DNA from: Turritopsis dohrnii
Taxonomy: Eukaryota > Cnidaria > Hydrozoa > Anthoathecata > Oceaniidae
DNA: 64,000 bases
Reading direction: 5' to 3'
NCBI GenBank assembly: GCA_027922465.2
Contig: BQMF02000326.1
Span: 124,001-188,000 of the forward strand
How positions within the stretch are numbered: position 1 is the stretch's first letter; each line of letters starts with the position of its first letter. The notes beneath the pieces were generated by a model, which was given only the letters and a program-made list of their open reading frames with translations, made no database searches and was not told the origin of the DNA. The position numbers and the translations under genes are program-made. Shown one piece after another: positions 10,826-41,384 of this stretch.

Positions 10826-13250
10826 GGTGGTAATATACCTAGATTTCAAGAAAAATTCGGAAAATTTTGAAAATTGAGATTTTTCCCTAAAAATAATGCT
10901 TAGACATTCTGGATCAATTCCTGAAAGTTTGAGGCTTTAATTTCATGGTTATAACGATATATTTAACGTTTTCTGGGAGAAGGTATGCTACTAAATCTCA
11001 AGATTCCCCTAGCAACCAACGCTTAGACCGTTGCTATGGTGTTTCTGGGTCATCTGTTCACTTACTGTAATGAAATAAGAAGTTTAACAAAACTTCAAGG
11101 TGTAGACTGTACCTTAAACACGGGAAATTTCGTGTATTGTTTCCATGAACTCATAGAAATGTTTTTGAAAGTGTGTTACTGTACTTGATTTGCTTTTGGA
11201 TGTTGAAAAGTTGAAAGGTTTTTACTCTTATCTGTTTACCTAATTTTTTTCATACTTAATATGTATAACAAGAATAAGTAGAAAGTATGGCTGGTACAAA
11301 GCAGAGCTCCAAATATAGACGAAAAAGAAGAGGCTTTCCTGGTACACAAAAACAACATATGCAAAGTGAAGCAACTTCTTCCTCTTCAACGAGTACTTCT
11401 ACATCTTCTATTTCTTCTCCAGTGAAACTTAACAGATCTCTGGAAAAAATAAGCAGGAACTGTCCACTCTTAAAGGAGGAGAATAATACAGTGCTTACCA
11501 GAAAACAAGCATTTAATCTTGGTATTGTCAATGGCAATCGCAGTGACCCTGTAAAGGCACATAGCAACAAGATCATCAGCGCAGAATCGTTGCAAGAAGC
11601 TATCAGTATTGCTGCAATATGTCGCCATTGTAAAAGCCCTAATAGTTTATTAGAAATTTGGCAACATGATAGTAAGAGACATGGACTAAATGAAGCATTG
11701 TGTTTAAAATGTAATTTGTGTCATCATGAAACTTTATTAAATACAAAGGTAAACTTGCTGATGGTGGTTTAGTTGGAGGCCGCGGCAGATTAACAGATGC
11801 TGTCATTGATAACTTTCAGAACTATTATGGTGCTGCTATTAGAAACAATTCGAAATCCATTGAAAATATGGTCAATGCCATATGGGCAATATTTCACCAT
11901 TCTATCTTTCCTGAGAAAAAAGAAACATTAGCGCAACCACATCGTTTTTGTCCAAAAGGAGCCCTATCGTGGTGTAAATATAAAAGAGATCAAGCAAACA
12001 AAAGCAACACATACAATAGTAGTAAGTGTCTACCATCAGTTTTTAGATCACAGTTGAAGCCTATTTTCATTAGACTTTCTGAAAAAACACTTTTAGAAAG
12101 ATGCTTGAAAGGACTCACTCAAAATGCAAATGAGGCAATTAATTCAATTTTATGGAGCAAATGTCCAAAGAGGGTTTTTTGTAGCAAAACAAAGTTACAA
12201 TCATGTGCTGCACTAACCATCCTTGAGTGGAATTCAGGAGCTGCTGGTTCTTCAAAAATCCTTTCTAACGTAGGTGTTGGGTTAGGTGTGAACACAAATG
12301 TTGGTGACCGTTTACGCAATAATTCTCGCATACTACAAGCTGCAAATAAATGCAAATCAAAGTACCAAAAGCGTCGGCAAGCATTACGCCAACTGAGGAA
12401 GTCAAGAAAAGCAGACACTGCCTCATATCAGTCAGGTGCATTTGGTACAAGCAAATATCCTGATGCAAATAAAAAGACAACTAAACTTGCAAAAGGCGCT
12501 CTTGTAGATATTGTCTTTGTTGATGAAAGTGAAGTTGCTATGATAAAATTCCAGGAAGGACTGTAGAATGTTGTGTCTAACTAAAAACAATTTTCCACAG
12601 TCATATTTCATGAAGCTTTATCATCAAAACTTTACTTGGTTAGCCAAGTATCTCTGTTTCAAAAATCTTTGCCTTGATATAATTGAAATCATTTTATTCA
12701 GTTCATTTTTGTAATCAATGAGTAAAAAAAACTGTTTTTCAACTAAAACGGCTTTTTTTAGAATTTAGATCTTTTACAATTTGAGTAAAGATTTTAGAAG
12801 TTCTATAAGTAGCTATTTTATGCCATTTTGCACAGAGCTCAGAATAAGTGTCTTCTTCAAAATGAGTTGAGGATTTTCCTTTTTAATTATCCGAAGACCC
12901 CGTATCCAAGAAAAACAATATTTTCCAAGTTACCATAGTAACCGTTGCTAAGGAACAAAATCCTCAACTCATTTTATAGCTAATTGAATTTATAACAACT
13001 ATGTGGAGTTTGAGTTCATAACCATCACCCTAACTCATTTTATCGTTTCTCAAAGATTTCTATTGCTTTTGTTTCCATGGCAACAGTACTAATTTGGGCA
13101 CTTGTTTTTCATGACCAAATCACCCAAATGTTTGTTGAAGGTATATAGTCTCAGAAACTTTTATTTGTTTTGATAGATTGTAATTTGTTTCATTAAAACA
13201 GCTGTCTTTTAAATGTATGTGTTTTTCCTGCCATATGGTCTATTACCACC
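10826..13250. mobile_element. Mutator-like element, candidate boundaries
   Basis: GGTGGTAATATACC at 10826 is matched in inverse at 13237-13250 with one mismatch. Inside, both ends carry related 'ctagcaacc...gttgctatgg' segments (about 11010-11040 and 12930-12955), as expected of long, diverged Mutator TIRs. Near the right side, 12857-12876 and 12956-12977 form a hairpin-like inverted repeat. No clean 9-bp duplication was found, so the ends are tentative. Confidence 0.45.
11287..12566 (+). pseudogene. Mutator-like transposase with internal deletion
   Basis: N-terminal piece (11287-11772): basic start, Ser-rich linker, then CRHCKSPNSLLEIWQHD and CLKCNLCHHE, the cysteine-rich module. It stops after NLLMVV. 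The C-terminal piece (about 11770-12566) begins GGLVGGRGRLTDAVIDNFQNYYGAAIR and contains RFCPKGALSWCKYK and GLTQNANEAINSILW, the conserved C-terminal blocks of Mutator-like transposases. The part with the first catalytic Asp blocks is deleted. It is a different lineage from the copy at 978-5928. Confidence 0.75.
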
Positions 13251-14000: not shown

Positions 14001-16054
14001 CGTAAAATTTTATAAGTAGAGCACCTAACAAATACGAGAATGATCAATGGATAATGGCCATTATCTTTGTATTTGTAGAAATAGAGATACCTGATTCTCT
14101 AAGGGCCTTTTCTAGAAATTGGCTGTTATATATAAGAAGTTTAATAAATATATATAATAAGTTTAATATAATAAATTTTTCAGTTTAATATTTTTTAGCA
14201 GACGAAGATTTCTTTGCAATAGAATTTCATAATTTTATTTATATTTTAATTTCATTTATTACTTACATTGTTGAAATAGCATATTTTGTAACAAGAGACT
14301 TTATAAACACAATATATTGTGTATACATATACTTCTAGCTGTAGCTGGCTATATGCATAAAAATAGTAAAGAAACCTACTACTCCCCTTCCCAATTGTTG
14401 TTCTTTGAAATAACATTCACATAACATATTGTGTATATTCATTTTCTTAATTTGCTCGAGGGTTATCAACGAACCATCCTGTCTCTCTGTGTCACAACAT
14501 CCACCCATTTCGATCGCTAATTCTTGCTATACTCTTCGTCTCCTCGAGGAAGACGAAATATAGGGATACCTTGAGTTTATTTAACAGCCAAAAATGGTGA
14601 AACTTGCCCCTGGAAGACCAGAGGAAGTGAAAAATAATTCGAAAAATCTAAAGCTTCCAGCCTGATTTAAAGATTTTTTGCATCATAAAAAAGCATGGGT
14701 TCTAGTTTTTCACGGAACCCGACTTATTCATAAGAAACGGCCCGAAAACGGCCCTGATTCCAGACTAGTTTTTTTCTTGTGACTATGACCGCAAACAAGA
14801 AACCTGATGTGTTAATATTCCACGTAGGAACTAATGACCTTACGAAAAATATTAATAATACCAAGGAAAAAATCACTAATTTGATCAATATAGTGAAAGA
14901 AGCTTCTCCGTCTACTGAAATTGTATTTTCTAATATTTGCTTACGTGAGGATGTACCAAACATTAATGCTAGACGACAAAAATTGAACAAGGACTTTCGA
15001 GATAACAACAATATTGACAGCAGCTTCCTAGCTAAGAAAAAGTTGCATCTAAATATGAGATTCGGAATCCCTCGATTAGCAAAGAACATCAAGCAGTTTA
15101 TTCAAAGTTGAACAATTATAGAGACAAGTCACACAGAAGAGATAGACGATCAACGCTTCGACCTGAAACGCCTAAAAGATATACGTTGTAGACACCCAAG
15201 TAATGTTATTTTTTCATACATAAATATCAACTCGATTAGGAATAAGTTGAATTTGCTAGGGTCATACTTAAGCGGTCTAGTAGATATCTTGTCGATTGGG
15301 GAGACTAAACTCGATAGTTCATTTCCAGAATCTCAATTTTTGCCTCCCAAGCTTTAAAACGCCCTATCGACTTGACGTCTCATGCCAAAGTGGTGGTCTT
15401 TTAACTTATGTGAAGAACAACATTCCTTCCGTCGTCTTTTTGATTTCAATTTTCCTATTGATATTCAAGTTATTCCAATTGAGTTAAGATTGCGTGGAAG
15501 GAAGTGGCTGCTACTTAGTGTCTACAGACCACCAAAACAATGCTTAAAATATTTTTTAAGTAAGTTACAAGAAGCTATCATGTTTTATAGCAATTTTGAG
15601 TATATCATCATAAGTGGTGACCTTAATACAAAACCAACAAACCCAGAACTATCTGAATTTCTTGAAATTAACTCCCTATTCAATCATGTGAAAAATAAAA
15701 CCTGTTGGAAAGCTGCGTCAGGGAGTTGTATAGACCTTATCATTGCCAACAGGAGATATTGTGTTATGAATACTGGGACTGTTGAGACTGGATTAAGCGA
15801 TCACCACTTGCTTATTTATACTGTGCTTAAAACTAGGTTTTAAAAACTTCCACCCAAAATTATCGAATATCGTCTATGGAAGAATTTTGAACATGACTTA
15901 TTTAGAAATGATGTATCAAAGGCTCTTGATGGCATCGATACATATTCCAATTTTGAACAAACATATACTCGAATTTTAGATAAACAAGCCCCAAGAAAAA
16001 CTAAAGCCAGCCACACATGACCAAAAACCTCAGGAAGGCCATCATGTTAAGGTC

Positions 16055-16910
16055 TAAATTTAAATTATTATTATTTTATTATCGATAATGTCTTAACAGG
16101 ATATTTACACTTCAGTTAAAACTAATTACTGCTATCAATGTGTGTCCTGCATAAAATAAAATCTAAGAAAAATTAAAGGCTAAAAATTATTTTACATGTA
16201 TATACATTTTACATCTATACAATAAAATGAATAAAAATACAACAGGTTTCAAACATTAGGAAAATGTACCCATCTACCAAGCACTTCATCACTCGCAGAA
16301 ATAGGCATTTATCTTATCTTTGAATTCTGTTAAGCTATCGCTGTTCCTTATTCCAAGCGGTAAATCATTATATATCTTAGCACCCTGATATTTGAATGCC
16401 TTTTCACCATACTCTAACTTAATCTTAGGAAGTTTGAGTAACATATTTCTGTTTCTAGTTCTCAGTTCATGTCTGTTAATTTCAAAATATTCATTAAACG
16501 GATTAGTCGAGTTTCCACTCAAACAGTTTTTCACAAGCAAAGTAGCTTTTGTTTTCATTCGACTTTCAATACTCTTGATCTTGATATCACCACTAACAAT
16601 TCGTCTAGCTCTACTATCCAGTGACCTCAATTTTGTTTGCTGTGTAGGTGTAAGATGCAAACTGATCAAGCTACTGTACATGATGATGGGTACAATAACC
16701 ATTTCATACACTTTGAAGGCCGCTTCTGTACTTAAAAACGATCTAAGCTTTTTCAGTAAACTTAATCTTCCAGCAGCCTTTTTATATTTTTTTTCGAAAT
16801 TTCCAATTAATGTTAACTTTGAGTCTAACTGATTTCCTAAGTACGTATACGAGGTTCCATGCTGAATAGGAACACCATCCAGGGTTATCGTTAAGAAATC
16901 TATCGTGATA
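16055..16910 (-). mobile_element. LINE 3' end (minus), 3' half of a chimeric insertion
   Basis: The minus strand from 16930 to 16289 encodes the end of a CR1/L2-type ORF2: TLDGVPIQHGTSYTYLGNQL, then VIVPIIMYSSLISLHL and KIYNDLPLGIRN. A ~230-bp 3' UTR follows, ending in an A/T repeat at about 16060-16080. It lies within LINE-A ORF2 and joins GTPase sequence on its 5' side near 16905. Confidence 0.75.
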
Positions 16911-18169
16911 AATATCATAGCCCATTCCAATCTTCAAATCTTTAAAGGACTGATTGAGATAGTGTTCAGGAAGCTCAAGCAATTTGGTATTGCATTTTTT
17001 AAGAACACTGAGTGTTTTAGGGCCAATGGAGTATGGATACAGTATGCCGGCTATATCATCGAAGGTCTTGCCTTTGATCTCTTCAATTTCTTTCACTCCA
17101 TTCTCAGTAAAAATGTCTGCTAGATAATCGCGTTGTTCATGTAAATCTTTATCAAGGTTGCTTTTCATTAAAACTTGTTGTATTGGGTTTGATTCGTCTT
17201 CAGGGAGATGTTTTGCATATAAGGCTTCTTCATCATCATTCAAATCATCATCTTCGCTAGCAGTAACTGATAAATCTTCTACTGGATTCAATTGCCTTTG
17301 CTCCCGGAAGAAATGAGAAATCGTGACTGCTGCCAAATTGTCCCCATTACCTTTTAACATATCCAGCATAGCTTCAAAAACATTTAAAAGTTGCCTAGTT
17401 CCACTAGGATTTTCCATTCACTGTTTCCATCAACAAGTAATCCGTAAGCTTCAGCTTGATTTTCAACGAAAACAACCGAGGGTATTATCTTAAGATAACA
17501 TGCAAACATCTTCAGAGTGTGGTTATAGAGCTTCCTAAACTCTGACCACATAGCACTTCCATCAGACGAGTTTGTGTAGGTATGGCCCGCAACTGAGCAT
17601 GCATGAGTGAAGACAACCAACACATTAGGATGATCAATATCAACAAGCTCCAAATACTTGAAAGCTTTTAAAGTCCTGCAGAAATCACTTTCTGCACCAC
17701 AAATTCTGTCATATGATGCCTTGAAAACTAGTAAAATAAGATTTGGATGAATGAAATTGTGTTGATTAAAAAATGTTTTTATACTAGTTATATTTCTAAT
17801 ATCTTGTTCCGCGCCATCTTCACTACCAAACCCAGGAGTATCTTCTAAAGCAAGTGAATTATTCTTTATATGTAACATAGGATCATCAGAAGTCACAACA
17901 TACTCTACAGTTCTATCAGTGCCTTTACGTTCAGTAGTAACGTTTGAGTAGACACCCTTGAATAAATGATTGACCAGGCAGCTTTTACCAACATTAGTGT
18001 AGCCATACAAAAGAATAATAGTTTTACCAAGACAACGTTTCAATTTGACAGAATCTTCGATCATGCACAAAAGCTTTGGAGCATTTTCATCAGTTTTGCC
18101 AATTTCAGAAAATTTGTCTAGTTCATCTTGGTTCTTTGGCAAAGTGAAGTGTTTCTCTGCTTGACTCAT
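16905..18169 (-). pseudogene. Intronless P-loop GTPase, retrocopy-like
   Basis: Starts at 18169 (MSQAEKHF). The P-loop GYTNVGKS lies at residues 56-63. A TTERKGTDRT switch region, LEDTPGF (G3) and VLVVFTHA (a G4-like variant lacking TKxD) follow. The fold resembles the AIG1/septin-like GTPases common in invertebrates. A frameshift at about 17400-17417 joins DGNSEW to NPSGTRQLLNVF, after which an acidic tail continues to near 16905. No introns in about 1.25 kb. The same-strand join to a LINE 3' end suggests template switching. Cellular role unknown. Confidence 0.65.
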
Positions 18170-19152
18170 TTGATTCCTTTAAGTGCAGAAAAGGTTGGTT
18201 CTCCGATAACCACATGAATATGCAAAAAACGGACGTTTTAGCGTAATTCCACAATTTCTCTTTATTGAGTGAATACAAAACTTCTTTCTCAATAACAAAT
18301 GCAAAGTAAATCTATTTTTTATATACTATCTCTTTGTTATTGGAATCTTTTACTGGCTAGAATAGTATATTTTATTGTCAGCATTTTTATGCAAAAAATG
18401 TAAAAAAATGTAAAAACAAAGCCAATAAAACTGGAGATCCTGAGGACATGGCACGTTACCGGAAACAGAGGAATTTAGTAGGGAATTTGAACAGACAAGC
18501 AAAGAAATCTTACTTCAGGGATTCCATGCGTTCCAATGGATCCTTTAAAAAATCTTTTGGTTGTCAAAATATATCTGTGGCTTTCGTAAAGGCCACAGTT
18601 GTCAGTATGCTTTGATCAATATGTTTTTAAAATGACAATCAACTTTAAACACAAACGACATTGTGGGGGCAGTCTTGATGGATTTTTCCAAGGCCTTTGA
18701 CTGTTTGCCACATAGCCTCTTAATAGCTAAACTTTCTGCTTATGGGTTTGGTATGAAATCACTCAAACTTTTGCACAATTATCTAAGTCGTCGCAATCAA
18801 CGAATCCGCATAGGTTCTCTTTTTAGTGAATTTTTAGAGATGATTATGGGCGTTCCCCAAGGCTCAGTCCTTAGCCCAACGTTATTCAACATCCTTGTTA
18901 TAGACCTTTTATTTTTGATACAAGAAGATATTTGCAACGATCTTGAACGCTTAAATAATGACCTGGAAATTGCTTTGGAATGGGTCATGAATAATGGCAT
19001 GGTTGCAAGCCCTGATAAATTTCAGGCAATCTTCTTGGGTACCAAAAGTGAAAGCATCGCTGTTAATGTGCGTTCTTCGAACATCGTCAATTGTAAGTCA
19101 GTTACACTTTTTGGTGTCACGATCGATAACAAGTTAAGTTTTTATCCTGTAA

Positions 19153-21895
19153 CATATGGTTCATCAGAATATTCGAGGGTTATTCGGAAACAAACATTAT
19201 GTTGCTGAAATAATTGAAAGTTTTAAAAACATCGACATTTTCGCTCTCAGTGAAACACACTTGCTCTTAGAGACAGACTACGGTGATTATTTTGAGATTC
19301 CGGAGTATGATTTTATTAGCCAACCACGAAGATCTGGAACATGCGGAGGAGTAGGCGCCTATATAAGGACAGGAATAAACTGGAAACGGAGAGAAGACCT
19401 TGAGAATGAAAACATTGAGTACATATGCTTAGAGATTTTTCCGCCAAAATCTAAATCGTCATCATGTACAGACCCCCGGATTCCTCGGAGTATTTACATC
19501 AAAACTATAATGACATCTTTTCTAATGTTTTGATGAACATTAACAAACAAGAATGTATTATCATGGGAGATGTGAATGTTGACTTTCTTAAGAAAGGTAA
19601 TAACCGAGAATATAAGTCGTTACTTCGTGCAAATGGTTTTTGTACAACTTTTAAAGAAACCAACACGAATAGATGGCGACTCAAGGACGCTAATTGACAT
19701 CATTGCAACGAACAACAGTAACGCTATTCATGCCTCTGACGTCATTACGGCCGGAATCGCAGATCACGAGATGGTCGGCTGTGTGGGAAAGGTGAATCAT
19801 ATGAGATATCCTTCGAGAAAATTAACGTGCCGTGATTATAAACGCTATGATCCTAACCAACTAAGGGATCATTTAAAAACCTGTGATTGGCAGGAAGTTT
19901 ATTGTGATAATGTGAACACCGCCTGGTCAAAGTTACATGAAATTCTTTTTAATGCTTTTAACACTTTTGCGCCTAAACTGACCAAGCAAATTAGAGGTGA
20001 ACCGTGCCCGTGGCTGACACCGCAGATTAAAAAAGTAATGAATGTACAAGATCAACTACTAAGAAAAAGTCAACGGAAGAATTGCAGAGAAGCACGTGCA
20101 CGATATAAACTTAAGAGAAATGAGGTCAACATCATGATCCGCTCCGCCAAAGCTGACTATGCCAAGTCGCTGCTTCTGGAAAATGCACGCGACACCACCA
20201 AGTTCTGGCTTTCAATCAAAAAGATATTTCCAGCGAAGTCCAAAAAATGTAAGGTCGATCAGGCATTTAGCGTATGTTATCAACCTGTCTCTCCGCACTG
20301 GAATTTTTCCGGATCAGTGGAAAATTGCAAAGCTTTTGTCACTGCATAAGAGTGGTCCCTCGGATTCCTTTGATAATTATCGTCCGATCTCTGCACTCCC
20401 TATCGTCTCAAAGATAATTGAAAAAATCGTTCACAAGAGACTGACCGAATACTTGGAAAGGGAACACCTTATATCATCTCAGCAGTTTGGTTTCCGTCCA
20501 AAACGATCAACAGAGCTTGCTGTAACACTCCTCACTGACGACATTCGCCGATCTGTAGATGCCAAGAAGCTTGTTGGCTGCGTGTTTATCGATTTCAGTA
20601 AAGCGTTTGATACTTTATCCCACGCCAAACTTCTCCAGAAATTGTCGGCTTACGGTATCAGCGATGTCGAATTGCAATGGTTCTCTAGTTACATGTTCCA
20701 CTGTAAGCAGCTCATGTACTACAATGGCGAATCTTCTGTTGTTAACGCTATAACAAGCGGGGTTCCACAAGGGTCAATCCTCGGGCCCCTTCTATTTATT
20801 ATTTATGTAAATGATATTGTGGATGTTGTGAAGCACTCTCAAATCATAAAATATGCAGACGATACCGTTTTGTATATAGCTGATAAGAATATCATCGTTA
20901 TCGAAGAGCACCTCTCCTCTGATCTTCAAGAACTTGCCGCCTGTTTTACCGAGAATGAGCTTATCTTAAACCTGAAGAAAGGTAAGACTGAATGCATGCT
21001 TTTTGGCACTGCTCAGCGCTTATCTGCAGCTCCTAAGACACTAGAGCTACGCTATTCTCACCAATCTATTAATGTCACAACAAGATACAAATACCTAGGG
21101 GTAGAAATAGACCCTACCCTCACTCTCAACGATCATTTCGATAAATCTTTCAAGAAGGCAACATCACGCTTGAACCTCATGTCAAAGCTACGTTACCAGA
21201 TGACGTCAAAAGCTGCAGCAGATATCTATAACACCATGGTTTTACCAATCGTCACGTATTGCAGCCTTGTTTCATTGTGCTCTACGAAAACTGAAGAGCA
21301 GAAACTTGCTTTGATTGACGAACGTGTCAGAAAAATTATTGGAGGGCCATGCGATGTTGAAGGAACGCAAACGCCTTATTGAAGCCTCCAAAAGCAGGCC
21401 TTGAATTTGCGCGGAAGTCAGCCTTCTATATGTGTTACAAGATATATAACGATTTACCATTAGAAATAAGGAAAGCAGAAGTTTTTTCAGCTTTTTGTAG
21501 GAAGCTGAAGGAACACTTTGTGTGATTCGTCTTTGGTATTACTTAGTCCATCCTTTGGGTTTTTAACTTGATCCAGAAATACAAGGAGACTAGATCCTCT
21601 ATCCGAGATTTACCATATGTGAAGTGACACGCCAAGTTAATCAAGTAAGACTGTTTGCTGTGGTTCTTCAAAATACACTTCCCTCGTAAGAGTTCGTACG
21701 ATTTTAGAAATAAGTGTTGTGACTGTGACTGCCTAATTGCTTCGTTTAATTTGCTTTGATTTTTTTAGATTTTATATGATTTTATTCTAGGATAAAGATT
21801 TTTAAACTATTATATACAGGACCCACTTGATACCAGCTTTTGTTGAAATGGACATCCTGTGTAAATATTCGTCATAAATAAATAAATAAATAAGT
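19153..21895 (+). mobile_element. LINE-B: 5'-truncated LINE inside LINE-A
   Basis: Begins abruptly inside the endonuclease domain (HQNIRGLFGNKHYVAEI) and ends with a TAAA/ATAA repeat at about 21874-21892. CTGTAA at 19147-19152 and 21896-21901 is a candidate 6-bp target duplication. LINE-A coding resumes straight after. A minus-strand 3' end of a related LINE lies at 32655. Confidence 0.8.
19156..21524 (+). pseudogene. LINE-B ORF2, endonuclease and reverse transcriptase
   Basis: Endonuclease blocks are ALSETHLLL, GDVNVDFL and IADHEMVG (19156-19770, with a frameshift near 19500-19690). An internal deletion near 20250 removes the linker. The RT (20290-21382) has FRPISALPIVSKI, CVFIDFSKAFDT (motif A), SGVPQGSILGP (motif B) and IKYADDTVLY (motif C, intact YADD). 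A frameshift near 21360 leads to KIYNDLPLEIRKAE and a stop at 21524. It shows the same domain order as LINE-D and is inactive through truncation and shifts. Confidence 0.85.
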
Positions 21896-22897: not shown

Positions 22898-25800
22898 ATG
22901 GAAAAAGATCAAAAAGATCAAAAAAATCATCCGACAGCTACTCTTCGTATCCAGTCCAACAAAAGAAGATTCTGTGCGCCAATTAACATCTACGCGAACC
23001 ATTCAGCCAGATTTCAGCTTGTTATTTCTGGTGATATTGAAACGAACCCCGGTCCACTCACTTGTCCCATCTGCGAAAAAACTGTCAGGAAGAACTCGTG
23101 GAATGCAAAGTTTGCCTAAACACCACACATGTCATGTGTATTCATCGAAATTTCAAACACTTTACTGAAAAACACTCTTTGTGGACATGTAATAACTGTC
23201 TGCTAACTGAACTACCATTTAATAACGCGAATATTGACTGTTACCTTCTGCCTGAAGCTGTTAACGTAAATGCTGCTCCTGAAGCAATGAATGTTTCAGA
23301 CCAGCTCAATATCCTAAACTCAAACAGAAATCTCTACAGTATTGGTCACCTAAATATCCAATCTCGCAAAAGCAAAACCGCTCAACTCGAGGCTATGCTT
23401 GTGAAACACCAGTTCGACATCTTAACAATTTCAGAGACCTGGTTGGTTGAAAACCCCGGACTCGTAAAACAGCTCACGTTCTCTGGATACGCCCCGTTCA
23501 AATGTAACAACAGAACTGGTCAACGCGGCGGAGGAGTTGGTGCTTATTTCAAAGACGGAATCAAACACAAACTGAGAGCCGATATCGTGAAGAAAGAACC
23601 TACCATCGAATATCAATGGTTTGAAGTGAAGGGTAAGAACAGTCCTTTCCTTCTTGCCGTTTTCTATCGACCCAGCTCCGATGATGCAGATAAACGAATC
23701 TGGTTGCAAAAATTTGAAGCGTTGGTTTCCTATGTCCACACCATCTGGTCCGACCCTATCGCCATCACGGGTGATACTAACATTGACGTTCTAAAACATA
23801 ACTACAACGTCGCGGAGGAATACAGAGAAACGCTTGATTGTCTTGGATTACGCCAACAAATAACAAAACCAACACGAAAAGTAAAGACCTGCATTGATCA
23901 TATCATAACCACGTTCTCGAAAGTCCCCCATGAGGACGTTATCCCATGTGGCGAGATGAGTGACCACGATGCTGCCTTTGTCATTTGTAACTTGCGTAAG
24001 CCACGTTTTGAGCCGAGGTTTAAATACATCCGCATCGAAAAGAACTTTAATTCGAACTTGTTCAAAGCTGAAGTCGAACAGCTTCCTTTCAATCTTGTTT
24101 ATGCTCTCGATACACCGGAACAAAAACTAGACACCTTTAACGACCTGTTTACCACCTGCTTAAATCGCCATGCCCCACTCATCAAACAAAAAGTTACCCG
24201 TCCACCTTCCCCGTAGTTAAAGGATCTTAATATTAACGAAAAGCAAAAAGAAAGAGACCACCTTCGAATGAAATGTCACTCATCACAATTTGACGAAGAT
24301 TGGGTTGTTTTTCGAAACGCTCGAAACGAACTGAAAAGACTTATTAGACTAGCCAAATCTAACTTTTATAGACGAGCATTGTCTTCCAAGCGGCCAAAGG
24401 AGGTTTGGTCAACTATCCATCGTATCTTGAAACCACGCCCGCACAAGATCAATGCTGATCCTGAAACCCTCAACAAGAACTTTAAGACGACTGCTGGAAG
24501 ACTGCTCAACTCAAAACCGAAATCAGAACATGTATTGCACCAACTTATCGAAAAACTACCTGAACCCGAAAATCCATTCACAATTGCTGAAGTTTCCTAC
24601 GCTGACGTTCGTAAAGCCATACTTGGTCTTCGCAACGACTGTTCAACCGGCCATGATCAATTACCATCAAAATACCTGAAACTCTGTGTCAACGAGATAT
24701 GCAGTCCAGTATGCCACATAATCAACACCTCCATCAAGGAATCCGTCTTCTCTAATCAATGGAAGATATCCATAATCAGCCCAATCCCAAAGATCGATAG
24801 CCCAGCTGAACCAAGCGATTACAGACCAGTATCCATTTTGCCTATCCTTTCGAAAGTGTACGAAAGACTCATTATGATTCAAATGACTAACTTTCTTGAA
24901 AATGAGGAGCTACTCTCAATGAACCAGTCAGGGTTCCGGAAGGGACATTGTACAGTCACAACATGCATTAAAATCAAGAACGACATCCTGAAAGCAATGA
25001 ATCGTGGTGAGATTACCCTTGCTGTCCTTGCTGATTTTTTGAAAGCATTTGACACAGTCGATTTTGAGACACTAGTTAAGAAACTTCACACACTACGCTT
25101 CTCGAGAAAATCACTACTCATCATCTCAAACTATCTAAGTCATCGTTATCAATACGTTCAAATCGATGACAAAAAATCCTCCCTCCTCAACGTCACCAAT
25201 GGATTACCACAAGGCAGTATACTTGGTTCGATCTTTTTCAACATTTACGTGCACGACATGGCTGCTACCACCACCGCCAAATGTGTTCAATATGCCGATG
25301 ACACCAGTATCTACTGTCATACGAAACCGACGGCACTCGAAAGCTGTACAAAATACATGAACTCTGACGTCAACGAAATTGAAAAATGGGCAAGTGGAAC
25401 GAATCTGATTTTCAATGCAACGAAAACTAAGTCGATGCTCTTTGCTGCAAAACAAATGGCAAGGAAGCATAACTTTGATCTTGACATCAAAGCGAACAAC
25501 GGTAAACCAATCGAACGAGTTTTATCTTTCAAGCTTCTCGGCGTAACCTTCTCAGAGGACCTTACATGGAACAATCATGTCAAAAATGTCACAACAAAGG
25601 CTTATGGAACGCTTAAAAGCCTCTCGCTTATCTTCCGTATCATCTGCGTAAGCAACTCGCCGATACGATGGTTCTAAGCAAATTGGACTATGGCAACGCA
25701 GTTATCAACAATGCCCCACCGTACATGTTTAACCAGCTACAAAAAGTTCAAAACGCTGCAGCCAGCTTTGTCATGAAAAGCTACTCTAGATGTTCCGATG

Positions 25801-26236: not shown

Positions 26237-26238
<2 letters not shown>

Positions 26239-26270
<32 letters not shown>
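26239..26270. repeat. (ATT)n tail of LINE-C
   Basis: About ten ATT units end exactly where CACGGTCGTT of the RAG1-like element starts. CR1/L2 LINEs end in short tandem repeats, so this is read as the LINE 3' tail and also as the target of the transposon. Confidence 0.8.
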
Positions 26271-26272
<2 letters not shown>

Positions 26273-26313
26273 CGGTCGTTTAGTGCGTATATTTAATTGT
26301 GAGCATGCGCAGT
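26271..26313 (+). repeat. Left terminal inverted repeat of the RAG1-like element
   Basis: CACGGTCGTT (26271-26280), then a divergent 11 bp, then a conserved 22-bp block at 26292-26313 that includes TTAATT and ends CATGCGCAGT. Counting CACGGTC as the heptamer, TTAATT begins after a 15-bp spacer. Confidence 0.8.
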
Positions 26314-26807
26314 AAAATAGCCGTTGCAATGATGAATTATAAACATGGCGCTATGTTCATAGGCCTAGCGACGAAGTTGTTTTTGAAAACCTATTGTTTA
26401 AATCAAAATAATTATGCTTTATATGGAAGATATGGTTGCATGCAAGATATGCACGTGTTGAATAATTGTTGAAGATGAACTTGAACAGTTACTGGCGGAT
26501 GATGGTGTCCATGTCGCCACATATGAGCATTAGTAACTTTACCTTCGAAATTTTCGACATATCGTTACAGCTTATGCAATATCCTCGAATTGGGAACTTT
26601 AATGAATTTTTTGAGAACGTAAATATGGTTTTATTTGTTGCTTAAGACCCTAACAAAGTTTTCAAAGAGGTCTGGATGTCCAATCATTTTTTTACAGAAA
26701 GTTTTGAAATCTTTGCTATGAATAAGTCGTTTTTAGTTCAGTTAACTATCTTTTCTCAACACAGTAAAGTCAAAAACAAGGTAACTTAAAACAACTAGTC
26801 ATATTTT

Positions 26808-29800
26808 CTAGTAGGGCGCCAATTTCCTTCTTTTTATTTCTGGTTTTCGTTTCTTGGCAATAGGATTCACACGTATATGGTGTTCTTTCAACATGCTTTG
26901 CAACCTTGATGTCCCATGCATGTGACAGTACATCCTCCCTAAATTATTAAATTCGGAGTGGATACTTTCACCACCCTGTTCACTGTAAACACCGAGTCCT
27001 AACTTCCATCTTCTTAGAAAATCAATGACATGGTCTTCCAACATATGCATTTTGGGTGTTATTGTTTCATTTGGCCATTTCTCACGATAAAATGAAACAA
27101 ACTCTTCGATATGTTGACCTAAAAAAGTAAACATTTAACACAATTGATCTTAATGATGCATAATGTATACCTATAACTTGAGCTTTTTACTATTATATAC
27201 TTACGAAAAGTTTCAATTTTTTCCTCATCAAAGTTCTCTGTTGTGTTCAGCATCACATGACATAGACCATATTTGTTGAAAAGATTTTTAAAATCTTGGC
27301 ATATTGTTATGGCTTCCTGGTGTAAGTTTGTGTTTCGCAGACCCAATTGAACAACCAAAATTGGAATTGCATTGCACAACTTGATAATGTTGGTAACCTG
27401 AAAAAAAAGTTTCCAAAGTTAGCTTGAAATAGCTTATAAAATGACCTTGTTAAGTGTAAGTCAGTTCACCTTTAACATTTTGTGCACATGATTTCCCACG
27501 AAAGACTTCCCATGATAAGCTTGTCTTTCAACATTTAATGATTTTAAAATTTCATCAAGTTTTTGTACGCAAGGACCAGCAGTACGTTTTAGTTCGCATG
27601 TGTCAATCAATACTCTAATTTCATGTTCCTATTATGACAACATAAAATAAATATTGTGGAAGAACTCAGATGAAAAGTTTACAGAAAATTTCATACCTTC
27701 TCCTCCTTTTTGCTTTCCAAATATCTTAATCGAGGTTTGTATACGTCCATGATGGCATTTGTATGTTCTGGTTGTTTTAAAATATTTAAAGTAATTGCAT
27801 CATGCACCAAGTTGATTGTCTCCTCAAAGTCACTTACTTGATTTTGTAGATTTAATATTAGTGACTGTGTAGCTATAAATTCATCAAATTGCTTCTGATT
27901 GATCTTTTTTTCGTTTATTGCCAATTGTCCAGCAATTTTCATGTCAAGTAAATAACAAGTACTTTCAAGTAGATTGAAAATTTTCAGGTAAACACCCAGT
28001 GAAATATGTAAGACTGGTAATGCAACCTAAAATTCACATTTTTATAATACTTAAATAAGCACAATCTGAGCTATGTAAAATCAGGCCTGCTGATAATCAG
28101 TTTTTTAAACTTTTCCCTTTTCATTATAGTGACACATAAATTCATTACCTAAATTCTAATAGATAATATCAAAATTAATTAACCTGGTCAAGTGGTATAT
28201 TGAATATGGGTTCATCTATCACATTATTGTACTCCTTTGCATTTTTGATGTCTCCACCAGCAGCCATGAATGCACAATAATTATCTTGTAAACTTTTTAG
28301 GGAACGTTGTGTGGATTTTTCATGAGGTATCTGCATATCTGACTTAGTGATGTGGCAGAATAAACAAGGATGACGTCCTGTAAAAGAAGATGTCTATAAT
28401 GAACCTGTTATATAATTGATTCAGGAATTCCTACATGTTTACATACCACTTGCTCCACTTATGCCATATATAGCACACAAAAATGCGTAGTCACCATACA
28501 AGAATAAACGTATCTTCCTGTTTCTAGATAGGTAAGATTTTATTGTTACAAATTTGAAATTCATTCAAGATAACACGAAAGTGTGAATAACTTACTCCCA
28601 TTGCAAAGTTTGTAGTAGATCAACCTGTTCTGAAAACGGATTCAACCCAACTTTCAGGTTGGTGACATAATCCTTAGCTTCAAACATACTAAAAACTGTT
28701 GTATTGGCTTTGCTGTTAGGCTTATTCACATTAGCGATTTGATATGCCATCTTGAATGAACCACCACCGTGATCACCCCCAATTTTTATATGAATTTCAT
28801 TGTCATAGGTTTTTCCTTCAATAAGTAAATCATTCCTGAAAATAATTGTAAACTTGAGATGCTTATTCTTTCTAGGAGAAAAATCCTGGTTCAAGTTATA
28901 TATGAATGCATATTATATATTTTTTATGAAATAGAATATTCTCAACTTACTTGCTCAAACAGTCAAGCCTTTTCATTATGTTATCGTGTAGATTTTTTAC
29001 ATATCCCCAGGGAGCTAGCTTAATTTCATAATTTTGTTTGTGATTTTTCACTTCAAAAGTGAATGGCGTGTTCTCAACTATAATGTCATCACCAGCCCAA
29101 GCACTTGCAGTTTGTCTTTGTTTAGCGTTTGATGCTGCTTTAATATCGAAAGTTTTCAACCATCTGAAAAAGAAAAGTATTTTTACGTAATGTTTTTATT
29201 TCCATTATTATGCTTGTGAGTCTTGTTTCTTACCGTGCCATTGTTTTAATTTTTTCCCATGGAACACCCATATCAGCCTTGAGAGCAACCATATCTTCAG
29301 CACTTATTTCAACGAATCCAATGTTTGATTTTGCGATTATTTCTCTTCTTTCTTCCTTGTCAAATAGTTTCACTAACTCAGCACTTTGCAATGTTTGTGC
29401 AGAACCTGAGGCTCCAGCCGTTAAGGCAAGTGTGTCCAACATATTTTTTGCCCTTGTTTTTAGTGTTCTTTGACAGACACTATCACTATCTTTTACAGGC
29501 TTTTTTATAGATGTGAAGCAATGCGGCTAGGAAAAGGGAAATAGATATTATATATACAAATATATATATAAAAATATATCATTTGCCTTTTTGAAGAAGA
29601 AATTTTCAAAATTTACTTAAACAATGGAAAGCTATAAGCTTTTATTTCCTAACACGAAGAAATAACATGAAAAGTTCATTTAATTTGATTATTCACTTCA
29701 TTGAAAATTTCTCCTGATAGAAGATTGTATCATATATGTAACATTTACCCTTGGTCCCCCAGAAGGAAACTCAATGATGTTTGATGTTGCATTTGCCAGT

Positions 29801-30642
29801 TTGTGCTTTAAAACATGGAGTGCAGCATCTTCCATATTTCGGGTCAATGAATCTGTTGGTTGAATCGAAAAAATTTGATTAATTATGTCGGTGGAGTTTT
29901 CTTTTGGTTGCGGACCATTGCAATTCTGTTCATGATGGATCTTTTTTCCTTTTTCAGAAATTTTAAATGTTTCTCCACAATTTTTTTCACATGGTATTGT
30001 AATGTATTCAATCATTTCGACAACATGGTGTGCGTATTCAACATCCCCTGGATAAATAGCTTTGGAACACATTTTACAAACTGTGTTTTCGAACGATTTT
30101 CCCTCTAGTGATGGAACAATGCAATACAAGCAGTACGAATGCCGACAACTAAGAACCACCGGTTGAACCACAAATTTCTTACATGAACAGCATCTGCAAA
30201 GATCTAAGTGGCTGTTGAGATTTTCGCAAATTTCTATGTCATTTACATCAATTGATTTTTCTTTTGCTACAGTGTTTATTAAAGTTTTTATGTGTTGTCT
30301 TGTCCATATTTTATTGTTGTTTATTTTAGGTCTTCCTGGGCTTTTCTTTTTTCTTTTTCTCCCTCCCTTCTTGTTACAAATTGTGCATGTTTCACTATGA
30401 GCCTCCCATGGTTTAATTTTTAAGGATGTTGTGGTAGATCTTATTTCCACATTTCTGATAGTCTGATAACATTTTTGACAGACTTTGTTTGGATGAATGG
30501 TTGAGTTATCAGCACTGACATCGGTGAAAAATACAGCTTTAATGTTATTAATAAGTGAAGAAATGGGTATAGAGTCTTTATGAAGGTTTTCTCCACATAT
30601 TCTACATAATGTTTGTAAGTTTTTTAAATGCTGTTCAGCCAT
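26808..30642 (-). CDS. RAG1L: RAG1-like recombinase/transposase, 10 exons, ~965 aa
   Basis: Probable DDE transposase homologous to vertebrate RAG1, acting on DNA in the nucleus. Exons (descending): 30642-29749, 29526-29234, 29163-28951, 28835-28596, 28517-28447, 28377-28184, 28026-27697, 27628-27470, 27397-27205, 27118-26808. All introns are GT-AG and the phases add to 2898 nt without a stop. Residues ~13-89 hold CRIC, CQKC and CTIC, matching RAG1 zinc pairs. A C3HC4 RING (~151-192) keeps RAG1 spacing. The core has GGDHGGG (D488 = D600), YGDYAF (D556 = D708), CLFC (575/578 = C727/C730), KMHMLEDH (887/892 = H937/H942) and QGGES (E913 = E962). The D708-to-Cys spacing of 19 equals mouse RAG1. 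The start at MAEQHL is chosen because homology begins just after it; an upstream in-frame ATG exists at 30747. No C-terminal zinc tail as in some RAGL proteins. Confidence 0.93.
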
Positions 30643-31058
30643 GATAGATCTTGAGAGGAAGGCGATGAGTACCCCCCCCAAAATGCGTCTGAAACTGTTT
30701 GTTAAAAAAATGATTGGAAAAGATGATATAGGTTTTTTAGAAGGCAAGACTATAAGGATCCAAGGGCTTGTTTTGGTTTTGCTGGGAAAATTCGATTATA
30801 TCGGTTTTCAGTATCCTGAAATGAACCAGTTTTTCAGAATCTTCTCCTTAGCGATGTTCGCTTGTTTGGAGATGATCCTGATTCAAAAACATTAAAAAAC
30901 TTATAGTTTGTTTATCCTTGGTCATTCTTTCAACTACTAAAATTAAATGTTACTAGGTATAAAACCTGTAATCTCGATTTAGAAGTGTTTTGAGTCACTG
31001 GGGTCTATATGGCCAGCGCTAAATTATGTCGCCAAGAGCATTATGCAAGACGTGTTGA

Positions 31059-31112
31059 ACTGCGCATGTGCATAATTAATTTCCGAGTTTCGGCTAGCGT
31101 TGAACGACCGTG
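31059..31112 (-). repeat. Right terminal inverted repeat of the RAG1-like element
   Basis: On the minus strand it reads CACGGTCGTT (31112-31103), a divergent 22 bp, then the conserved 22-bp block (31080-31059) ending CATGCGCAGT. The block matches the left one at 18 of 22 positions. The spacer from the heptamer to TTAATT is 26 bp, exactly 11 bp longer than on the left. Confidence 0.8.
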
Positions 31113-31420
31113 TATTAGCAAAACGATCCCATACACTTTTTTGATCAGCTTTTCAAATGATGCCACGTGCTATTATACTAATCGTGAATGTGTCTTGCGT
31201 GGTCGGACTGCCGCTATATGACCACGATTAAGAAGATTTTGACCATTAAAAAACAAAAAAACTCACGAAAAATAAAATTAAGTAATTGGCAACCGAAAGT
31301 GTTCCCATGTTGTAGAGCTCGAAAAACCGATCAAAAAAATGCATGGGATCGTTCCGCTACGATCAACCGTTACAGAGATATCATCGTTCGAAGATTTTGA
31401 TGAAGTCAACACTAACATTT
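31113..31420. repeat. Rearranged fragment of the ~565-bp repeat family
   Basis: Starts TATTAGCAAAACGATCCCATAC, related to 'tagcgaaacgatcccatac' in the satellite at 43-54 kb (inverted). At about 31157 it switches to forward orientation with the CCACGTGC, 'gaccacgattaagaagattttgacc' and 'gttgtagagctcgaaaa' segments of that family. It shows that the DNA right of the RAG1-like element was already repeat sequence. Confidence 0.75.
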
Positions 31421-35806: not shown

Positions 35807-38800
35807 AAATTTCTTTCTTGTCGAATATTTACAGGGAGTTCGTTGTATAACTTTGCCCCAGTATAGGCAAACGACTTTCTTGAGAATTCTAGTTTTATAT
35901 TCGGTAACTTAAGAAGGCAGCCAGCATTTCTAGTCACTCTATTATGATCGTTGATCCTAAAATATTGTGAAAACGTTTGACATGTTTTACCATCTAGACA
36001 TTTCCTTGTCATGACACAGGCATTTCGTTTGAACAGGTTTTCAATCGATATTGATTTATCTGTTGAGATACTGTTGTACATTCTTTCCAGCGATTTGAGG
36101 TTTTCTTGCTGTTTTTTCGTTAGTACAAGATGAAGATTACTGCAGTAACTGATAATGGGTATGACCATTGCTGTATAGATCCTTTTTGTTGCATGGTTTG
36201 GTAGAAGTGGTTTCATTTTCATCACCAGGTTCATCCTCTATGTTAATGCTGAATCAAGTATATTCCCCAAATACGTATATCTTTCAGTTGAATGGAGTGT
36301 TACATCACGATATTTAACATCAATCTTTTTTCCTTTTCAATCTCTGTGCAGTTCCAAATAGCATAGATTCACTTTTTCCTTTCTTCATATTTAAGATTAG
36401 CTCGTGCTCGAAACAAAACTGCGATAAAAAATCAAGATCTTCGTTGATACAAGGATTCAGCACAACGATGTCACTATTTGCCAGATACAGAACAGTGTCA
36501 TCAGCATACTTGATAACACTGGAATGGCGTAAAGATTCTGCAAAACTATCGAAAAATACCAAAAACATTAGAGGACCCAGTATAGATCCCTGGGGAACAC
36601 CTGAAGTTACTGGTTCTTCTTTAGATCTTACACCATCAATGTCAATGATTTGTTTCCTATTAAACAAGTAAGACTTAAACCATTCAAGTTCTTTTCCGGA
36701 AATACCATAGGAAAAAAGTTTATCAATAAGAGTTGCATGGTTAATGGTATCAAAAGCACGGCTTAGATCAATGAATACACATGCAACTAGTTTACCATCA
36801 TTTACATTTTTTCTGATCTCATCACATAAATGTAATGCTGCTTGGTTAGTGGAACGTTTCTTTCTATAGCCAAACTGGCTCTCTGACAAAAGATTGTGGT
36901 GTTCCAGATAATCACTGACTTGTGACTGCACGGCCTTTTCAATGATCTTAGAAAGTATAGGAAGTATCGATATTGGTCTAAAGTTTTCTGGTTGATTGTT
37001 TGGGCCTGCTTTATGAACAGGTGTTATTCGGGCTTTCTTCCAATGTTCAGGAAATGTTGCAGTTTGTAACGATAGATTGATGACATGAGTAATCATGGGT
37101 GAAAGAGAGCTGGCACAGTCCTTAAGCATGGTTGCAGGAAGTTCGTCTAAACCTGAAGCTTTCTTTCTTTTAAGTTTCTTTAACTGCTTTTGGACGAAAA
37201 CGTTCGAGACATATGCAAAATGAAAAATTGAGCTAGTTTTAGTTTGAGATGGTGAGAGTTTTCTCCATGCGAAATTGACCAGCTTAAATGAATTTTGTTT
37301 AAGCTTGTTTACAATACCAGAGAAATAATCTGAGAATTCATGTACCTTTTCTTCTTTGTTCAAATTAGTCGTGATTGATTGACGTTTTGTAGGAAAGACT
37401 TTTTTGACGATATTCCAGAATTGTTTTGGTTGATGTTGATGTTCGTTGATTAGATTTTGGTAGTACGTGCTGCGACCTTTGCGTAACATGTTGCTGCATC
37501 GATTACGTAAATTTCTAAAGGCCTTCCAATCGTTCTCTAAGTTCGTTTTCCTGGCTTTTCTTAGCATTCGGTCACGATAATCCATTAGGCCCCTTGTAGC
37601 TTGGTCTATCCAAGGGCACGGTCTACCTTTAATTCTCTTCTCGATGAATGGTGCATGTCGGTTAAAGATGCGTGACAAAACCCTGTTAAGAATTTCAACA
37701 ACCCGGTTGACATCCGTTATTTCGTAAAACGATGTCCAGTCTAGTTCATTGATCTCATTTGATACGTTGATAGCATTGTAATTTCGATAATTACGACATC
37801 GAATCTGTTTCGGTTGATATTTTATAAAGTTGTTCTTTCTAATGCAACCAACCATGTCATGATCTGAATATGACATTGGAATAACAAAAGACTTTTTAAT
37901 GTTTATGGAGTTTGAAGCAATTATATCTATCAAACTGGTCGATTCCGAAGTGATACGTGTCGGTTCTTTTATCAACTGTTTCAAACCATTAGCCATTAGA
38001 ATATTTTTGAATTCTTTACTGTTTCGAAGATTGCTATTGTTTTTACAAAAATTAACATTGCAATCCCCCAGGAAAATTACTTCATTAAATAATATAATTG
38101 ATTTTGATAAAAGAATCTGCAAATGTTTATTGAAATTTTTTGAGAGATATTTAGAGTCATTTGGTGGCCTGTAAAAAGCAATTATGAGAAAAGATTTGCT
38201 TTTTTGTTGTGATATTTCGATAGCAATACTTTCAATATCTGTGTGCTCTAAATCAGGCCTTCTGTTCCAAACAACTGAATTATGAATATAGCAACAAATA
38301 CCACCACCCTTTCCAGTGAGTCGTGCCTTACTGATAAACAAATAACCATCTACATTAAACAGCATTTCATTTTCATCTGGTGATAAATACGTTTCAGACA
38401 AAGTTAGTATATCGATCTCATTTCGGTTTAGCATGTCATGTATTCCTTCAAAGTTGTTTGAAAGACCACGTATATTCAGATGTAATATCTTGAACCCACT
38501 TTCCTTCAGTACGTTCAGATCAGTAGGGCCAGGACAAGGCTTAATATCTCCACTTAACAGTAACAACATAAGCAAGAAAATATTTCTCCTTGAGATAAAA
38601 TCATAACGAAGGATCTTTTTCTTGATGTTATTGTAGAAAAGCATCGTCATAATTTCAGCAGTATCTTCATTTGTTAAATAATTATTCTCGGTATTCAGAT
38701 TATTGTTCCAAGTAGTATAAGTATAAGTAAAGCCAATGAACAAAATCAAAGCAAGAGTGAAAACTGTACACAAGAACACGTCCGTTCTGCTTACCGCCAT
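35807..38800 (-). pseudogene. LINE-D ORF2: TM, 2A-like, endonuclease, RT
   Basis: Starts at 38800 (MAVSRTDVF). A hydrophobic segment (residues ~8-26) and a second (RRNIFLLMLLLL, 71-82) lead into SGDIKPCPGP. The endonuclease follows (HLNIRGLSNNF, LSETYLSPDE, GDCNVNF, YSDHDMVG). The RT has FRPISILPILSKI, CVFIDLSRAFDT (A), SGVPQGSILGP (B) and IKYADDTVLY (C). The 826-codon frame is open to 36320, where an A-run shift ends it. The remaining ~150 residues (TYLGN to KLYNELPVNIRQ) follow in another frame with one more stop. The endonuclease and RT motifs look intact, so the copy is recently inactivated. Confidence 0.9.
38525..38554 (-). other. Degenerate 2A-like motif
   Basis: Encodes SGDIKPCPGP at residues 83-92 of the LINE-D ORF, in the position of 2A peptides. 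The 2A Glu and Asn are replaced by Lys and Cys (D-I-K-P-C-P-G-P), so skipping activity is unlikely. Confidence 0.65.
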
Positions 38801-39961
38801 GTTGCCATGTAAAAAGCTAGGAAATCTGACACCTTACAAAAAATGACCTTGATTGCTCGTATGCGTGACAATGTGTCTTTCACACATTTTTGTTGTACTT
38901 CATTGAAAATAAAAAAGTATATAAGCAAAACAACTGCTTATTATTTGAGATTAAGAAAATAAGAGATTGCTGGCCAAGCAGAGAAACAGAAAAAACAACA
39001 ACAAATTCGCAAAAGCTTTCGATTTAAAAATCATCATCAGTGCTGATGTAAAAATGAAAAAAATGAAAAAATGAAATTTATCTATTATGGTGAATGATAA
39101 TTTTTTACATACATGAAAACATAAAAGATCATACGAATATATATGAGTGACAAGACAAGACAAGACTATGAAAGAAATAAAAAATATATGTGTCCATTGC
39201 TTTGATAATAAGTGCATTACATTACTAACACAGAATATTAGTGATTAATTCAATTATAAGTAGCACACAAATGCACCTTCACAGACAGAGCAGAGCTATA
39301 ATAACTATGTCTTATATATATACATTTTTGGAGATGTTTTCTGTTTGGGTGACTATAGATTGAACACACATTGTGACACACACATTGAAAACTCTTCTAA
39401 GTTGACGGATGTAACTATATAACAGATTACAAAAAATAACATCAACATTCATTATGGAATGAAATGCATATCATAATGCATCATAGCATACATAGGTCCT
39501 TGCTTGGCTTGGAGGTAGCAGAGCTCTAATATCTCCTGGCCAATTTAGTGACACAAAATACAAAATCAGCAATAAGTAGCCAGCAAGGAAACTCAGCAGT
39601 ATATAATCACAGTATCACTTATAACGATCATAATATTGAGAATTGCATTACTTCTCTGAAGCATTATAAATCCGTGTTTCCAGAAACGTGAACTCCTCTT
39701 TATTTTTATGGAGGCCGCACTCACCCTGATAAAGAAGTTGTAATTATCAATCATTAAACAATTCTTAATTAAGCCACAATCAACAAATAGCCTCTATTCC
39801 AGCCTTAAGATTAAGGCTTGTGTTTTTAAAGGTATCAGCCTACAACTGGGGACAAAAATTTATGGACGGACGGACGGACGAACACAAATGCTAATGAAAG
39901 ATCAGCTGCTGCCGCGCTGACCAATTATAAAAAATAGAAAACGACTATAACAGCTACTTAC

Positions 39962-40244: not shown

Positions 40245-41276
40245 CTGAAAAAGTAACGATAATTATATTGTTAAGACTGCTTTTTTCTTGGACATACAGT
40301 GACTATGTCATTAACAAGTGATAATACGAACGTTGACTAAAAGTATTGTAGGTGTTAAAGGTACAATATTCCATATGACAACTTGAATGAGATACAGAAA
40401 AGCAACATATAACGGCCAATACGTTTAATGCTAATTTAGTCTGTAAAAGAGAAAATATTGGACAATAGTTCAAGTTATATATTCTCAATATATATTAACA
40501 ATGTATAATCAGATAAATATGAAATTACTTTAAACACTTTTATAGAGAAAAACTGTGGATCAAGTTACTTCTGTGATTATTATACCGACTCCAGGGGAAA
40601 AACTCCTGGTTATCCCATGCCAAAGGGGATTGATTAAGTCTATTGTTCCAGAAGAAACCGTATAGATAGGGTGGGGGATGTCACTGAATTATAAACAAAA
40701 CCACTTGTGAGCATGCAGCCATGTGTAACTTCCTAACTTTCTATTATCTCAATAAACATAGACCAATCTCTCAAGTGCAACGAAATTTCATCTTTCTTTA
40801 CATTTAGCTGATATGTATTTTCTATTCTACGACTATACGCAAACTCTAAACATATGAAATTAAGTTGTGCTCACAACATGAACTTGTGAAAAAATCTTAC
40901 TGAATCTACTTTCAATTTGTTAGCAAAGCCTCAAGTTTAGAGGAATATTTTCAAAAGATTTCTTACCCAAGTGTCTCAATCCAAAGCTACACAACATGCA
41001 AATTATGTGTAGAGGTTTACGCTTTGTCTCATTGTCTAAAAAAGAAAAGAAAATCTAAGAGAACTGCAGGTACAAAAAATAGTAATGGACTATCAGGTTA
41101 AAAAAGGAAAAGAATTGTAAGCAAAACATTCATACCAATTTTTAAAAGAAACCATGCAGTTCAACATGTATGGCCATATGTTACTGTATAACATTGATAA
41201 AACTGCCTTTTCAATGACATCAGAATCTCAAAAAAAGAGAATAAATTACAATATGTCACACATACAACGGCTTTTT

Positions 41277-41375
41277 GCCGCTTTCATACCCTCCTCCACC
41301 CGGCTCCATGCCTCTTTCATACCCTCCTCCACCCGGCTTCATGCCGCTTTCATACCCTCCTCCACCCGGCTCCAT
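41277..41375. repeat. 33-bp minisatellite, 3 units
   Basis: Three exact-length 33-bp units (gccgctttcataccctcctc...) with two or three substitutions. The repeat length is a multiple of three and is open on the plus strand (AFIPSSTRLH), but no gene context supports coding. Confidence 0.85.
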
Positions 41376-41384
41376 GTCGCTAAT

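Follow-up and report, generated by a model that had tools for sequence, protein, structure and literature searches.

A probable Chapaev-group DNA transposon in Turritopsis dohrnii with a RAG1-like N-terminal zinc region and RING finger

DUF1280 is the domain of the transposases of Chapaev transposons, and in a tree of RNase H-like proteins it is placed with RAG1 in one small clade (PMC3985635). Chapaev is described as one clade of a wide Transib superfamily, so the term "RAG1 relative" is fair in a broad sense (Kapitonov and Koonin 2015, PMC4411706). The same paper describes two subgroups of Chapaevs in which a Chapa domain is followed by a RING finger, and according to it the RAG1-type N-terminal zinc region is not exclusive to RAG1. 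The hallmarks given for Chapaev are 3- to 4-bp target duplications and CAC...GTG ends, and its characteristic motifs are C(2)C, LH and H(4)H (PMC4079192). RAGL and Transib elements are described with mostly 5-bp target duplications. CACTA, Mirage, Chapaev, Transib and RAG1 are all reported to carry the zinc motifs C(2)C and H(3-4)H (PMC12730594). The spacing within the ends is given as 12/23 for RAG signal sequences and 27/31 for ProtoRAG, while most Transibs are symmetric (PMC8289069). A Chapaev3 in a fly and the RING fingers of other elements are treated in PMC3630058, and counts of DUF1280 and RAG1 domains in Hydra are given in PMC7642931.

The window analysed here, the whole 64,000-bp stretch of T. 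dohrnii DNA, contains a single full-length transposase gene, flanked by CAC...GTG ends in inverted orientation. Together they form what appears to be a complete Chapaev-type DNA transposon of 4,842 bp on the minus strand (26271..31112), delimited by an inverted CACGGTCGTTYA at both ends. Judged from its sequence, the locus is very probably a cut-and-paste Chapaev-group DNA transposon that is autonomous and whose transposase carries a Chapa zinc region and a RING before the DDE core.

The gene was read on both strands and rebuilt from its splice sites. It lies on the minus strand, with the ATG at 30642 and the stop codon ending at 26808. All nine introns (68 to 222 bp) are of the GT...AG type, and the ten joined exons give an in-frame protein of 965 residues, or 966 codons with the stop. 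The earlier note had read the locus as a RAG1-like gene of ten GT-AG exons and about 965 codons. Its gene model held, with the frame kept over 9 of 9 introns, and D488, D556, C575, C578, H887, H892 and E913 were all found at the positions that it had given.

Exon 1 (29749..30642, residues 1-298) encodes the Chapa/RAG1_imp_bd zinc region and the RING, as indicated by Pfam and PDB matches. Exon 2 (29234..29526, residues 299-396) and exon 3 (28951..29163, residues 396-467) are followed by exon 4 (28596..28835, residues 467-547), which holds the first catalytic residue, D488, and the end of the DUF1280 match. D556 lies in exon 5 (28447..28517, residues 547-571), C575 and C578 in exon 6 (28184..28377, residues 571-635), and a candidate LH motif at residue 642 in exon 7 (27697..28026, residues 636-745). 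H887, H892 and E913 are encoded by exon 10 (26808..27118, residues 863-965 and the stop). The DUF1280 match spans 2 of the 9 exon junctions, and exons 5, 6, 7 and 10 each contain an expected motif; both observations support the gene model beyond the open frame. Exons 8 (27470..27628, residues 746-798) and 9 (27205..27397, residues 799-863) were placed by frame and splice sites only. All ten exons are on the minus strand.

The N-terminal part of the protein is RAG1-like, as had been claimed. In Pfam, the RAG1 importin binding family (PF12560, RAG1_imp_bd) was matched with an E value of 1.1e-9 by the whole protein and of 2.1e-13 (50.9 bits) by exon 1 alone. Among the best 60 of 64 PDB matches, full-length RAG1 was matched significantly through its N-terminus only, over residues 28-238 (E 1.3e-6). 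When exon 1 alone was compared with the PDB, the matches included RAG1 (E 1.3e-5) and RING proteins, among them RNF8 (E 1.4e-4). The Pfam RING model stayed under its cutoff in exon 1 (17.2 vs 21). The presence of a Chapa zinc region followed by a RING is thus read from the RAG1_imp_bd match, the RNF8-type PDB matches and the sub-cutoff Pfam RING. A structure of exon 1 predicted with no alignment was unusable (mean pLDDT 39, pTM 0.23).

The core gave a different result. Two Pfam matches in the whole protein were above cutoff, PF12560 and PF06918 (DUF1280); the latter covers residues 371-542 and scores 66.1 bits, where the cutoff is 25 (E 4.7e-18). Three more whole-protein matches were all far under their own cutoffs. 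PF12940, the RAG1 recombinase family, was absent at E values up to 10 from both the whole protein and the core. In the same Pfam run the mouse RAG1 core had PF12940 as its sole match (E 1.8e-252), and the core from the window matched DUF1280 and, far under their cutoffs, two other families, none of them a RAG1 family. In a PDB search at E values up to 10, the 682 residues of the core alone retrieved a single chain, a splicing factor at E 0.31, and neither RAG1 nor RAG1L. The positive control, a stretch of 414 residues from the mouse RAG1 core, matched amphioxus RAG1L (6b40) at E 3.8e-68, so a RAG1L core of ordinary divergence ought to be detected. Even the mouse control gave no Transib-named PDB chain at E values up to 1e-5, and the PDB result therefore has no bearing on Transib.

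The DUF1280 match covers the first catalytic D only; D556 and E913 were located by motif and spacing. In a single-pair BLASTP, the region of the glutamate (residues 882-942) matched mouse RAG1 932-991 with 24.6% identity at E 0.018. In phmmer, residues 881-946 matched the RAG1 glutamate region with about zero bits, which is not significant, among the best 60 of 64 PDB matches. A weak match of this kind is as would be expected between distant relatives. In the sequence tests run, the core is the DUF1280 core of Chapaev transposases and not a RAG1 or RAGL core. The description of the gene as a RAG1-family recombinase therefore stands in part: the gene looks intact and has a DDE triad and a RAG1-like N-terminus, but its core belongs to DUF1280, with neither PF12940 nor a RAG1 or RAG1L chain among its matches.

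The distance from the second D to the first Cys is 19 residues and that between the two His is 5, both here and in mouse RAG1, as had been pointed out. Other spacings are D1-D2, 68 here vs 108 in mouse RAG1; C2-H1, 309 vs 207; D2-E, 357 vs 254; and H2-E, 21 vs 20. The zinc ligands had been taken as a mark of RAG1. They do not single it out, because the CMC/Transib/RAG1 group as a whole carries C(2)C and H(3-4)H, as described in PMC12730594. The Chapaev motif set is present here as C575/C578, the candidate LH at 642 and H887/H892. Five LH pairs occur in the protein, and this is one of the two that fall between C(2)C and H(4)H.

Termini belonging to the gene had also been proposed, and they are real as an inverted pair at 26271 and 31112. 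These are the only two zero-mismatch matches of CACGGTCGTTYA in 64 kb; with up to 2 mismatches, 5 matches were found in the window vs 4.69 expected by chance. The gapped alignment of the two 110-bp ends scored 41, and none of 500 shuffles scored higher than 34. Taken alone, the terminal 10-mer match is nothing unusual, since 13 exact inverted 10-mer pairs, mostly T-rich runs, exist between the 1-kb flanks of the gene. The chosen ends are singled out by the CAC start, the matching flank and a second shared block. A perfect 16-bp inverted pair is also present about 400 bp inside each end (26679-26694 / 30703-30718); it is either chance or part of longer ends.

A putative target site duplication, TATT, flanks the element at 26267..26270 and 31113..31116. 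When flank lengths of 1 to 10 were compared in this one copy, whose left flank is an ATT repeat, the flanks agreed at 4 bp (TATT) and at 1 bp, and no 5-bp agreement was present. A perfect (ATT)11 array ends in the left TATT. Since TATT returns at every third base of this microsatellite, the duplication taken alone is only weak evidence. Apparently the transposon inserted into this repeat. The array (26238-26270) directly abuts the transposon end and lies downstream of reverse-transcriptase frames; perhaps it is the tail of the upstream retrotransposon.

Only 537 and 470 bp of the element lie outside the gene. No RAG2L gene was found in the element, in which the largest non-gene frame (30584-30895, 103 aa) had no Pfam match. 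Because so little of the element is outside the gene, the transposase would probably work without a RAG2 partner. No other copies of the element were found in the 64-kb window by blastn (E 1e-3), and tblastn at E values up to 1 found nothing in the window besides the gene itself. No relative was confirmed among viral contigs (exon 1 and core) or GTDB genome contigs (core); these represent viruses, bacteria and archaea, so the result has little weight.

The two 100-bp ends were compared along diagonals -80 to +80. The two leading matches were a 10/10 match at the very end and an 18/21 match that lies deeper, with a shift of 11. On the side downstream of the gene, the terminal block CACGGTCGTT (26271..26280, plus strand) is followed 12 bp further inside by a 21-bp inner block (26293..26313, plus strand), which agrees with the other end at 18 of its 21 positions. 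On the upstream side of the gene, CACGGTCGTT (31103..31112, minus strand) and the 21-bp inner block (31059..31079, minus strand) are 23 bp apart. The gap between the blocks is thus 12 bp at one end and 23 bp at the other in this one copy. The level of the inner match was reached in none of 300 shuffled pairs and none of 300 random window pairs, and as a 36-nt pair this match tops the inverted-repeat list of the region. CATGCGCAGT, the core of the inner block, occurs exactly only at these two places; with one mismatch it has 4 matches, which is not unusual (12 of 100 shuffles). We take CATGCGCAGT to recall an NRF-1 binding site. The 11-bp shift is independent of where the block boundaries are set, and the exact values of 12 and 23 depend on them; if the terminal block is taken as 12 bases (11/12 equal), the gaps become 10 and 21. 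The unequal gaps, which were noticed after the fact in one copy, could be an indel. It is possible, if rather unlikely, that this two-block layout with unequal gaps works like that of V(D)J signals; were the arrangement recurrent and both ends needed, Chapaev transposases would pair unequal ends whose difference is one helical turn. This would be a 12/23-like architecture outside the RAG/Transib lineage, which Chapaev and RAG1 either took over from a shared ancestor or acquired independently.

To characterize the surroundings of the element, Pfam was run, besides the gene, on 19 of the window's 28 frames with a length of 140 aa or more. Several other mobile elements were found near the Chapaev-type element. 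Endonuclease or reverse-transcriptase frames lie at 15376-15843, 18636-19208, 20138-21382, 23041-25677 and 36320-38833, and a Mutator-like piece lies at 11730-12566. The region 23041-25677 (plus strand) is one non-LTR retrotransposon with endonuclease and reverse-transcriptase frames parted by a stop, and a sub-cutoff PHD-like zinc match is seen at its front. At 59220-60846 (minus strand), a TNP-like RNase H frame (E 5.6e-25) adjoins a sub-cutoff THAP match; by these matches it is probably a P-element-like transposase in pieces. The frame at 17387-18178 (minus strand) contains a GTP-binding domain (MMR_HSR1, E 3e-9) and possibly encodes a GIMAP- or septin-like GTPase. The adjacent frame 16785-17417 showed no clear family. 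The GC content is 34.9%, and a 33-bp tandem repeat of 3.2 copies at 41276-41381 is GC-rich for the window. Scans of the window with Rfam (gathering threshold) and for tRNA gave no matches.

Other explanations of the locus were weighed against an autonomous Chapaev-group element. It is very improbable that the gene belongs as RAG1L to a RAGL (ProtoRAG-like) transposon, or that it is a domesticated form of RAG1. Such an origin would agree with the RAG1-like N-terminal region, with the same catalytic and zinc residues at a D-to-Cys distance of 19 and a His-to-His distance of 5, and with the weak BLASTP match of the E region (24.6% identity, E 0.018), a stretch also given by phmmer without significance. 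The core, however, has DUF1280 instead of PF12940 (none at E up to 10), and it found no RAG1 or RAG1L chain, vs 3.8e-68 between mouse and amphioxus. The D1-D2 distance is 68 vs 108, a 5-bp duplication is absent in this one copy, and the element has neither room nor a recognised frame for RAG2L. Membership of RAG1/RAGL was rejected because of the core family, the PDB comparison with its positive control and the duplication length in this one copy.

A true Transib element is the least probable of these explanations, barely to be entertained. CAC termini are shared with Transib, in which C(2)C and H(3-4)H also occur. The DUF1280 match argues against it, as does the N-terminus of Chapa and RING, which is described as absent from the canonical Transib transposase (PMC4411706), and the putative duplication in this one copy with its ATT-repeat flank is 4-bp, not 5-bp. 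A host gene domesticated from a Chapaev transposase and now immobile is very improbable, although the intact frame and the single copy in 64 kb would fit it. Inverted ends and a likely target duplication close to the gene would be unexpected for an old domesticated gene, and several other mobile elements are nearby.

For the preferred reading, a Chapaev-group transposon, we propose that the spliced 965-residue transposase would bind both ends via the conserved blocks. Its RNase H-like site D488/D556/E913 would cut outside the terminal CAC/GTG, and the element would insert elsewhere with a stagger of 4 bp. As in RAG1, the RING may provide E3 ubiquitin ligase activity and a means of dimerisation. 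Recent mobility is suggested by the sharp ends and the open frame.

As a member of Chapaev the element is ordinary, yet it is a full-length example of Chapa, RING, DDE core and ends. The Chapa-RING-DDE architecture underlies the argument that the RAG1 N-terminus and RING were fused to a transposase before RAG1 arose. It is also a warning that an active site, zinc ligands and N-terminus alone are insufficient for calling a gene RAG1. The earlier note had held that a copy with an N-terminal RING region deserves description. A Chapaev with a RAG1-like N-terminus is an architecture already in print, since Chapa and RING are known together in Chapaevs, as described in PMC4411706, and the domain order here follows it; this copy itself may well be undescribed. 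Should other copies also show the unequal bipartite ends, it would become possible to test outside the RAG lineage how the 12/23 rule arose.

Among the described systems, the element is most like the Chapa-RING Chapaevs, with which, by their published description (PMC4411706), it has the Chapa zinc region, the RING and the DDE core in common. The general Chapaev hallmarks are CAC...GTG ends, which are also seen here, and a short target duplication, for which TATT is the candidate here. With Chapaev3 elements (Merrow, Garfield, Conan) it has C(2)C, LH and H(4)H in common, CAC...GTG being a Chapaev hallmark (PMC4079192). Garfield_BM is described there with a 556-aa transposase in two exons and TWA 3-bp duplications, in contrast to the 965 aa, ten exons and putative TATT duplication found here. 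N-RAG-TP of Aplysia (Panchin and Moroz 2008) is, as here, a case of RAG1 N-terminal-like sequence in a transposable element, in that case of a mollusc, but unlike this element it is described as composed entirely of the N-terminal-like part (PMC8355894). RAGL elements (ProtoRAG, protostome RAGL) differ from it in their core family, their RAG2L partner and their 5-bp duplications, as described in PMC7204232 and PMC8289069. According to the same sources they resemble it in N-terminal zinc motifs, in a ring domain in some of them, in the same kind of active-site residues and in CAC ends, and ProtoRAG resembles it also in its unequal ends (27/31; PMC8289069).
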